Positions 59,658 to 63,434 of a DNA stretch of 64,000 nucleotides are shown here, piece by piece. Numbering within the stretch: the first letter of the stretch is position 1; every line of letters begins with the position of its first letter. The notes beneath the pieces were generated by a model, which saw only the letters and a program-made list of their open reading frames with translations, was not told where the DNA came from and searched no databases. The stretch is from Phycisphaeraceae bacterium (GTDB taxonomy: Bacteria > Planctomycetota > Phycisphaerae > Phycisphaerales > Phycisphaeraceae): contig JADZCR010000005.1 of assembly GCA_020851465.1 (NCBI GenBank), positions 186,001-250,000 on the forward strand, written 5' to 3'. The position numbers and the translations under genes are program-made.

Positions 59658-61076
59658 TCATCCTCTGTCATCTTGGCCGTGTGGAGGTTCGAGCATCGTT
59701 GGTGGATGAACTCGTTTCTTCTTTCCAGCGGGGCGGGGTTCCTGACCCAGAGTTTTTTTTCGTCGCAGGATGTGGTGGTAATGCTGTGCAAATCGATGGG
59801 ACTCGTCACGGATCGCCTGACAGATCCGCAAACCGAGATGCGTTCGACTCAGGCGAATTGGTTCACTTCGTGCCTGCGTGTAGATGATTTCTTCCTTCTT
59901 GGCCAGTGAGATGACCATCGGCGGTTTTACGTTGAGCTGATCGAACGCTTCGAGGGCCGCGTGGAGTTGCCCCAGTCCGCCGTCAATGATGATGAGGTCC
60001 GGGTAAAGCTCGCCGCCTTCGCCGGCTTCACGGTAGCGTCGGCTTACGACTTCGCGGATGGCCATGTAATCATCATTTCCGCCTGGAACACTCTGGATGC
60101 GGTATCGGCGGTACTCGTTTTTGAACGGCCTGCCGTCGATAAACGTCACCTTTGATCCCACCGTCTCACCTCCTTGAAGATGAGCGATGTCGATGCACTC
60201 AATCAGGCGGATCGGTTCAGTCATTCCCAGTGCTTTGCGCAGAGATTCCAACCCCTTGCGCGGTTCGATTCGGAATGCTTCAGCTTCAGGCTGCCACCGA
60301 TCTTTCTGTGATCCGCGGTGATCGAGTTTTTCCAGAGCCTTGAGTTGATCGCGCAAGACCGCAGCACGTTCGAAATCCAGGGCTTTTGCGGCAGACTCCA
60401 TCTCGTCCTGCATTTCCCTTTGCATGACCGATCGTTTTGATTCGAGAAACCGCACAAAGCGTGCGATATCACGAGCGTACTCCGATTGGCTGATTCGTGC
60501 CCCGCAGGGAGCGGTGCATTGCTTGATCGGATATAGCAGGCAGGGGCGAAAAAAGCGTCGCTTGTCGTCATCTGCGCGGATTTCCAGATGGCAGGTGCGA
60601 AATTTGAAAACGCGCTGAAGCAGCGCGATCGACTCTTTCAGCGCGTACACGCTTGTGAACGGCCCAAGTACCTTGGCACCCTTGAACTCCGGCGCATTCG
60701 GTTGGCGCGAGATAAAAACTCCGGGGAAGTCATCCTTGATCGTGATGATCAGGTACGGATAGGTTTTGTCATCCACGAGTTGTGCGTTGAAACGCGGGTG
60801 GATGTCTTTGATGAGCCGATTCTCCATGAGGAGGGCTTCCCACTCACCTTCGCATTCGATGTGATCGAAGTCATGGACAAAGTCGAGCAGACTTTGTTTT
60901 TTTCCACCCAGCTCAGCGGAAGGCACGAAATAGCTCGATACACGATCGGGAAGACAGCCAGCCTTACCAACGTAAACGACCCTACCGCGGTCGTCCTTCA
61001 TCAGGTAAACACCAGGGACTTTGGGAAGTTTCCGAGCCTTGTCGAGGAGAGATTTGAGCCGTTCGCCGCGCTCCAT
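59658..61076 (-). CDS. uvrC: UvrC-like excinuclease lacking the C-terminal HhH domain
   Basis: UvrC makes both incisions in nucleotide excision repair. The N-terminal GIY-YIG nuclease (PGVYLMKDDRGRVVYVGKAG), the cysteine region (CLLYPIKQCTAPCG), the UVR/UvrB-binding helix (MQDEMESAAKALDFERAAVLRDQL) and the RNase H-like domain (ECIDIAHLQGGETVGSKVTF, IIIDGGLGQLHA, RDESHRFA with Asp-Asp-His) are all present. After residue 440 there is only a basic tail; the tandem helix-hairpin-helix domain is missing, giving 472 aa instead of about 600. No other frame downstream encodes it. The length and intact catalytic residues argue for a functional short form. Confidence 0.9.
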   Translation of the reverse strand: MERGERLKSLLDKARKLPKVPGVYLMKDDRGRVVYVGKAGCLPDRVSSYFVPSAELGGKKQSLLDFVHDFDHIECEGEWEALLMENRLIKDIHPRFNAQLVDDKTYPYLIITIKDDFPGVFISRQPNAPEFKGAKVLGPFTSVYALKESIALLQRVFKFRTCHLEIRADDDKRRFFRPCLLYPIKQCTAPCGARISQSEYARDIARFVRFLESKRSVMQREMQDEMESAAKALDFERAAVLRDQLKALEKLDHRGSQKDRWQPEAEAFRIEPRKGLESLRKALGMTEPIRLIECIDIAHLQGGETVGSKVTFIDGRPFKNEYRRYRIQSVPGGNDDYMAIREVVSRRYREAGEGGELYPDLIIIDGGLGQLHAALEAFDQLNVKPPMVISLAKKEEIIYTQARSEPIRLSRTHLGLRICQAIRDESHRFAQHYHHILRRKKTLGQEPRPAGKKKRVHPPTMLEPPHGQDDRG

Positions 61077-61211: not shown

Positions 61212-62879
61212 ATGTCCGCATATCACCTACCCCCCTCACCTCAGACCAACAAGCTTGGCAAGAAGCGGGTTCAACTCATCGCTAACGGAGATCTACGCCT
61301 CTCCGCCAATCAGAAATGCTGGCCGGCTCAGAAAGCAATGGAGGAGGCTCTGACTCAAGCCGTCGAAGCATCGGGTTACTTCCTCGTGCGGGCGCATCCC
61401 TACAAAGAGGACCAGAAGCATGGCTTCATTGGTTCACAAAAAGAAGGCATGGAAGTTTTCCGCTCCATTGATCCTCATGCGCCTCTCATCGTGGCTGAGG
61501 CTGTGTGGCAATATTCGCACCACGTCCTGCATGGGCTGACGACGCATAAAGGGCCGATCCTTACTGTCGCTAACTGGTCAGGTACTTGGCCGGGACTTGT
61601 CGGCATGCTGAACCTCAATGGTTCACTCACAAAAGCGGGTGTGAAATACTCCACACTCTGGAGTGAAGACTTCAGCGAGATCAGCTTTCGCGACAAGCTG
61701 CTTCACTGGTTGCGCAACGGCAAGGTCAAGCATGACACCAGCCATGTGACCTCGTTCAAGCATGTGAAGGTCGGCAGTTCAGAGCGACGTCTTGCTGAGG
61801 CATTGGCGGTACAACTCCGCCGTGACAAGGCCATCATGGGTGTTTTCGACGAAGGCTGCATGGGGATGTTCAACGCGATCATTCCCGACGAGTTGCTGCA
61901 TTTAACCGGCGTGTTCAAAGAACGTCTTTCGCAAAGCGCACTCTATGCCGAAACGCTTCAAGTCTCGGATGACCAGGCCAGAGGGGTACGGCAATGGATG
62001 GAACAACGCGGGATGAAGTTCATCACAGGGCCGAATGAAAACAACGATTTAACCGACGCGCAGATTCTCCAGCAGTGCAAAATGTATGTGGCCGCTCTGC
62101 GCATCGCGGACGACTTTGGTTGCCACACGATTGGTATTCAATATCAGCAGGGGCTTAAGGATCTGTTACCTGCAAGTGATCTGGTCGAAGGGACACTCAA
62201 CAATTCAGAGCGGCCGCCTGTTCGCAGTCGCGACGGCCGACGTGTGCTTTATGAAAATGAACCGCTGCCTCATTTCAACGAAGTGGATGAGTGTGCAGGG
62301 CTTGATGGTCTGCTGACCTATCGTGTCCACAAAGCCATGAACCAACCCGTCGAAAACACCCTGCATGATCTCCGGTGGGGCGACTGGGACCAGAGCAAGA
62401 CGGTGAGCGATTACGTCTGGGTGTTTCTGATCTCCGGCAGCGCACCTCCCGCCCATTTCGAAGGAGGCTGGAAGGGTGCCAGCAGCGAGCGGCAGCCGAA
62501 TATGTATTTCAGACTCGGAGGCGGCACACTCAAGGGAATCTCAAAGCCCGGCGAGATTGTCTGGAGCCGAGTGTATGTCGAGAAGGGCGAGTTGCGGATG
62601 GACCTGGGACGCGCCGGGGTAGTGAGCCTTCCCGCGGAGGAGACGCAGCGCCGCTGGGACGCGACGACTCCGCAGTGGCCGATCATGCATGCGGTGACTT
62701 ATGGCGTAACCCGCGATCAGATGATGGCACGGCACAAGAGCAACCACATTCAGGTGGCATACGCGAACTCTGCAGAGGATGCCGATAAAGCTCTGCTCGC
62801 TAAAGCAGCTCTGGCCAATGCGCTGGGCCTGAAGGTGGCGTTGTGCGGAACGAAGAAGAACGGTAAAGGATGGGAATAG
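61212..62879 (+). CDS. L-fucose/arabinose isomerase-like protein
   Basis: A 555-aa protein with the fold of L-fucose isomerase-type enzymes. Domain 1 includes [20 protein letters not shown] and [19 protein letters not shown]; domain 2 includes [12 protein letters not shown]; the C-terminal domain includes [13 protein letters not shown] and, near its end, [20 protein letters not shown], where the family has a metal-binding His. Acidic residues around [16 protein letters not shown] and [16 protein letters not shown] may bind metal. The exact sugar is unknown. GGGAG precedes ATG 61212. It fits the sugar-metabolism theme of the window. Confidence 0.82.
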
Positions 62880-62888
62880 GCGAACCTG

Positions 62889-63071
62889 CTATTCCTTGCC
62901 GCCGTGTTCCTTCAAAAACTTAGCGATCTCTTTCTGGCTGAATTGCAGTGCAACACCCAGCGGGGTTTTGCCGTAGATATTCCGCTCGTTCACATCACGG
63001 CCGGCATTGATGTGGGCCTTGACTTGGTCCATATTTCCTGTCTTTGCGGCTTTGTGAATGGACATCTGCAT
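62889..63071 (-). CDS. Mini ankyrin-repeat protein
   Basis: A 60-aa protein from ATG 63069-63071 (MQMSIHKAAKTGNMDQVKAH) preceded by GGGGGAG. It contains about one and a half ankyrin repeats: SIHKAAKTGNMDQVKAHIN with AGRDVNERNIYGKTPLGVAL. The frame could extend to 63131, but the upstream residues are not protein-like. Very short ankyrin proteins occur in planctomycetes and elsewhere; partner and function are unknown. Confidence 0.7.
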   Translation of the reverse strand: MQMSIHKAAKTGNMDQVKAHINAGRDVNERNIYGKTPLGVALQFSQKEIAKFLKEHGGKE

Positions 63072-63434
63072 AGTTTGCTCCCCCGAAGGTTGCGCCTTGG
63101 GTTTAGAAAAACGTGATTGATCCGCGAACAAGCGGACAAATATTATACCTGAATTTCACGAAAAATACACTGGCATCATTGAGACATTGAGGAGATGACT
63201 TGGCGATTCGGGGATCTTTGTTGAGCTAATTAGCCCTGAAAATCAGGGGGTTTTCGCGTCTTAATGGGGGCATGACGGAGGTGTTCCGAGTAGTTGGTTG
63301 CCACGATTTTTGGAGTTCCGTTTCTTGACACTCTCCGTGTAGAAATTTACAGTTCAACGCGACACGAGGCCCTGCCGACACTCGGAGCTCTCCCGGTCTT
63401 TTCATACCGGGGCAGACTCCCCGGAGACCGCGCG
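63072..63434. other. Divergent intergenic region before the STAS gene
   Basis: About 360 bases between the ankyrin gene (minus) and the STAS gene (plus). The plus frame is open from 63294, but its first 47 codons lack protein character, so I treat them as leader. No repeat, tRNA or terminator is seen. Confidence 0.4.

Follow-up and report, generated by a model that had tools for sequence, protein, structure and literature searches.

The protein encoded at 59658..61076 of the window (the whole 64,000-nucleotide stretch of Phycisphaeraceae DNA analysed) is probably the normal housekeeping UvrC of this lineage, reduced on a single occasion and most likely still able to make both incisions. It lacks the C-terminal (HhH)2 and also PF22920, an RNase H-like domain of about 115 aa that stands in other UvrCs between the UVR motif and the catalytic RNase H domain. 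The gene and its parts are located as follows:

59658..61076, minus strand: short uvrC, 472 aa (ATG start at 61076; stop 59660..59658)
60786..61025 (limits approximate), minus strand: GIY-YIG nuclease domain, residues ~18-97 (invariant columns; Foldseek to 1yd6)
60504..60593, minus strand: four-cysteine region C162, C179, C187 and C191, equivalent to E. coli C154/C166/C174/C178
60327..60425, minus strand: UVR motif, a UvrB-docking helix pair, residues 218-250 (Pfam PF02151, 40.5 bits)
60261..60326, minus strand: short linker, residues 251-272, in place of PF22920 (pLDDT <50 at 260-268)
59787..60236, minus strand: catalytic RNase H domain (UvrC_RNaseH_dom), residues 281-430 (Pfam PF08459, 158.7 bits; Foldseek to 2nrv/2nrr)
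59661..59747, minus strand: disordered C-terminal tail, residues 444-472, where (HhH)2 would stand; variable among relatives

The protein scored 365.5 bits against TIGR00194 (uvrC), above the equivalog cut-off of 285.45. Together with the GIY-YIG domain, the UVR motif and the D/D/D/H set of the RNase H domain, this makes it a UvrC orthologue as judged from sequence, although the absence of (HhH)2 and PF22920 means that it is not an orthodox UvrC by architecture. The sequence-only reading had held that the GIY-YIG, UVR and RNase H parts are kept, and this was borne out: the last two gave Pfam matches, while the GIY-YIG domain, recognisable but weak (14.1 bits against a cut-off of 22.6), was backed by Foldseek and by the residues Y24, Y35, R45, E85 and N97, invariant in 60/60 Phycisphaerales sequences. 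This domain is expected to make the 3′ incision. Residues D296, D336, D365 and H427 are the equivalents of E. coli D399, D438, D466 and H538, which, going by the title of a reference, reportedly form the site of 5′ incision; in another reference title a 4Fe-4S role is said to belong to UvrC. The structure model, built with 60 sequences, had a mean pLDDT of 80.5 and a pTM of 0.44, so low that domain placement is not fixed by it. The folds of the GIY-YIG and RNase H domains were confident, with Foldseek TMt values of 0.87–0.90 to 1yd6 and 0.88 to 2nrr, respectively; the tail 444-472 had pLDDT <50, and no HhH fold was present in the model.

Two open frames lie near uvrC. The divergent neighbour (61212-62879, plus strand) encodes a protein of 555 aa that weakly matches the N1 and C-terminal domains of L-fucose isomerase, and a small 80-aa open frame at 62889-63131 (minus strand) looks ankyrin-like by eye.

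Concerning the missing domains, the Pfam scan of the window protein returned no HhH family at E 1 or better, while the identical scan of E. coli UvrC found HHH at 579-606, HHH_5 at 557-608 and PF22920 at 251-368. PF22920 was likewise absent from two other short UvrCs (L184 and L204) and present in a long-type one (L218). It had been claimed from the sequence that no HhH follows the stop codon, and this held: none was seen by eye in the three same-strand frames downstream, and HHH_5, searched through the whole genome at E<=10, had no match on the contig that carries the window (C5). The description of a basic tail in place of (HhH)2 stood only in part. HhH is indeed absent, but the loss of PF22920 had been overlooked and the tail is not conserved. 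Since the tail after RDEAHRF has a median of 16 aa, and is of <=20 aa in 120/149 short UvrCs, the unusual 43-aa basic tail of the window protein represents local variation, not a domain that replaces (HhH)2.

The relatives share this architecture. The nearest ones belong to Phycisphaeraceae and Phycisphaerales (Planctomycetota); 80 of the 557 confirmed loci were used, and in the 110 loci of the combined set (30 + 80) every UvrC ends 15–82 aa past RDEAHRF. A match was found in 39 of 41 near genomes, the two without one being 78% and 51% complete; in G002 uvrC is split across two contigs, and G009 has a short N-terminal fragment only. Across the phylum, 156 evenly drawn Planctomycetota genomes, each >=90% complete, were sampled. 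Fifty-eight were short-type, with one near-full-length match each (E<=1e-15; best E 1.9e-87 or lower), in 94 the match was partial or in two parts (best E 3.3e-49 or higher), and four gave no match. The 19 sampled genomes that share at least the class of the window were all short-type, and as read from the 156-genome table there was no instance of both forms in one family. A broader search with TIGR00194 gave a match in 290/294 genomes.

The two forms are separated clearly by the length of the region that aligns with E. coli 240-392 (152 aa in E. coli): 34–45 aa in 149 short sequences and 146–158 aa in 50 long ones. Neither these spacings nor the residue counts include L206, a fragment cut off where its contig ends. 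The equivalents of D399/D438/D466/H538 are kept in 149/149 short UvrCs, and the four cysteines in 148, 149, 149 and 149 of 149. Taken alone, the unusual length of the window protein might have pointed to a frameshift, an assembly truncation or a decaying copy. This was ruled out by the architecture that the relatives share, the 149 sequences, of which 127 remained when thinned at 95% identity, having been drawn from many assemblies, single-contig genomes among them; a downstream HhH, moreover, was not found. The probability that we leave to an artefact or a pseudogene is thus practically nil, in keeping with the earlier view that a simple frameshift is not involved.

In its own genome (G000; 3.4 Mb in 20 contigs, 95.5% complete) the window UvrC gave one match at E<=0.001. 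The second, full-length uvrC that the sequence-only reading had envisaged, which would have made the window gene a paralogue with a different role, was not found in this 95.5% complete assembly. A search of it with TIGR00194 gave three matches, presumably the two halves of the window gene plus a UVR motif. The partners are present, each as a single complete protein (UvrB, 975 bits; UvrA, 1307 bits). Weak extra UvrC matches were seen in two other short-type genomes, at G033:C9:309093-309800 (E 6.5e-7) and G029:C27:14648-15058 (E 2.0e-4); these are possibly Cho-like proteins.

The origin of the short form was approached by maximum likelihood, with a tree of 80 UvrC rows in which only shared columns counted and those of the missing domains were left out. 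The 49 short rows grouped together as a single clade (SH-aLRT 99) that one change is enough to explain, so by this tree the short UvrC has a single origin within Planctomycetota. The gene is single-copy, the short architecture is the same throughout the 149 sequences, and these fall into one clade; the earlier suggestion that the lineage uses a reduced UvrC was thus supported. In a UvrB tree of 30 rows the short-type genomes were not one clade (4 changes). Because of these four changes, an early horizontal transfer of the short uvrC may have occurred, though a single clade was not rejected (p-AU 0.198) and the short form was likely inherited vertically.

HhH was also lost separately elsewhere in the phylum. 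L212 (family f24) is a long-type UvrC that ends ~17 aa after the RNase H motif and groups with the long rows in the tree, while L258 and L259 (family f61) end 20–22 aa after that motif. In all three, as in the window protein, the RNase H domain is not followed by HhH; unlike the window protein, they keep the middle domain, as indicated in L212 by measured spacing and in L258 and L259 by the lengths of their frames (578 and 612 aa) and by the span of TIGR00194 (2-542 and 2-539 of 574). Judging from these sequences, at least three separate losses of HhH have occurred in the phylum, two of them without the linker loss seen in the short clade. In L212 a RluD-like frame, named by eye, starts directly after the uvrC stop.

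The order of GIY-YIG, Cys4, UVR and catalytic RNase H in the window protein is that of canonical UvrC (E. coli, 610 aa; TIGR00194), and the catalytic residues are the same too; it differs in lacking PF22920 and (HhH)2. In a survey of GIY-YIG proteins, the orthodox UvrC architecture is given as C4-UvrBb-EndoV-HhH and other variants are described (PMC1564403); planctomycetes did not come up in its main text under the terms searched. As to function, PMC7835731 states that (HhH)2 of E. coli UvrC is needed for binding single-stranded DNA and for 5′ incision, and that it may matter for 3′ incision too in some contexts. Activity of the short protein is for this reason not to be assumed. PMC9426483, on the other hand, reports that in every Helicobacter of its alignment HhH is either down to a single motif or missing, and that the middle region of UvrC is absent from H. 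felis and H. suis. According to the same paper, disruption of HhH in H. pylori did not change UV tolerance markedly, and catalytic mutations did change it. The claim that HhH is needed thus stands for E. coli but is not general, since the domain can be dispensable in Helicobacter. This precedent makes our preferred reading, a reduced UvrC that still works, more plausible, and at the same time lowers its novelty. The reduction is apparently convergent: Helicobacter, whose proteins were compared by their published description, are distant bacteria, and the planctomycete short form is uniform over many families. A reduced UvrC was thus already known from one genus; the planctomycete case adds its depth, its uniformity and its single origin across a large clade from which PF22920 and HhH have gone together. 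No short planctomycete UvrC was found described among the papers listed on UvrC, its HhH or nucleotide excision repair in Planctomycetes, those on planctomycete UvrC being judged by titles and abstract openings and few subscription papers being covered.

The short UvrC could also cut on the 3′ side only, another nuclease or an exonuclease finishing the reaction, as proposed for Cho-type proteins. Two sources speak for it, one that ties the 5′ incision of E. coli to HhH (PMC7835731) and one that describes Cho as confined to 3′ incisions (PMC1564403). Cho and Cho-like proteins do have GIY-YIG and Cys4 in common with the window protein. Cho is described in PMC1564403 as devoid of RNase H and HhH, while the short UvrC keeps its RNase H domain; the Cho arrangement (Cys4, then the Cho C-terminal domain, no RNase H) was not that of the window protein (PRK10545, 41.5 bits versus 367). 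Moreover, an RNase H active site invariant in 149/149 sequences is not what one would expect of a dispensable 5′ nuclease. Cutting on the 3′ side alone is accordingly considered improbable.

The alternative put forward in the sequence-only reading, that a separate HhH protein provides the missing DNA-binding domain in trans, is given a low probability. HhH proteins are present in the genome, and one of them, PolX, has two HhH domains and a role in repair. However, the HHH_5 matches read (genome-wide search with PF14520 only) were PolX, RuvA, LigA, PolA, DprA, a ComEA-like protein, RecR and a TPR/RNA-polymerase-alpha-CTD protein, that is, housekeeping families expected in long-type genomes as well. 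The short-type genomes showed no excess of HHH_5 matches at E<=0.001 (3–8 in 16 short genomes versus 3–12 in 15 long ones, the HhH of UvrC itself being included where present). Nor was there a conserved neighbour of uvrC: with uvrC clusters and checked overlapping frames set aside, the commonest real families occurred at 16/127 loci. The trans idea was thus not supported.

The short UvrC might also have left nucleotide excision repair for another process such as recombination, considering that in H. pylori the protein takes part in recombination without needing its catalytic sites (PMC9426483). The short protein retains the UVR motif and both active sites, it is the sole UvrC found, and UvrA and UvrB are retained with it. 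Such a departure from repair seems very unlikely.

Concerning UvrB, its tail past the UVR motif has a net charge >=+5 in 19/21 short families, 6/26 long ones and 0/2 of those with loss of HhH only. A rank test on this charge gave p 2e-6; the test ignores kinship, and one origin of the short UvrC amounts to one correlated event. The loci were L228-L257 and L262-L290, with no G045 (no UvrB match) and no G044 in the set, and 52/59 rows were scored, seven failing the motif pattern (L228/G000, L266/G025, L269/G068, L272/G109, L273/G306, L282/G098 and L290/G093). Looking at these seven ends by eye, a basic tail was seen in G000, G025 and G109 (short) and in G068 (long), and none in G306, G098 and G093. 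In the short-type families the tail is probably disordered. These data suggest, as a rather unlikely possibility, that in the short clade the DNA-holding role of (HhH)2 passed to UvrB, whose disordered and strongly basic tail, placed right behind the UVR motif that docks on its counterpart in UvrC, would grip DNA beside a minimal two-nuclease UvrC, the middle and HhH domains being a dispensable module lost together. If true, nucleotide excision repair in this clade would have a division of labour different from that of E. coli. The idea is weakened by the single origin of the short UvrC, by the short families f29 and f41, whose UvrB has no basic tail, and by the lack of such a tail in f24 and f61, the families with loss of HhH only. 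No column of the UvrB alignment discriminated short-type from long-type genomes. As a separate observation, the UvrB of the window's genome (G000:C2:85029-87257; L228 / L141) has ~50 extra residues between DYFP and IIDESH (Walker B), absent in the other 29 aligned UvrBs.

Returning to the reading of the window protein as the housekeeping UvrC of its lineage, we infer the following course of events. One ancestral UvrC would have lost PF22920 and the C-terminal (HhH)2, giving a compact enzyme made of GIY-YIG, Cys4, UVR and RNase H. UvrA2-UvrB would mark the lesion, the UVR motif of UvrC would dock on the C-terminal UVR motif of UvrB, and the GIY-YIG and RNase H domains would make the 3′ and the 5′ cut, respectively. 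The DNA contact made in E. coli by (HhH)2 would be either unneeded or assumed by the UvrB-DNA pre-incision complex, and the basic tail behind the UVR motif of UvrB in most short-type families perhaps aids it; UvrA/UvrB would thus provide the hold on damaged DNA.

From the E. coli results, (HhH)2 had seemed essential for 5′ incision. Its repeated loss, in the short clade, in f24 and f61 and in the published Helicobacter, suggests that the role of HhH is conditional. For annotation, short planctomycete UvrCs should not be labelled as truncated or as pseudogenes. A clade that keeps both active sites without (HhH)2 and PF22920 provides a natural minimal UvrC, of ~440–470 aa, and with it a system in which to ask what dual incision minimally needs.
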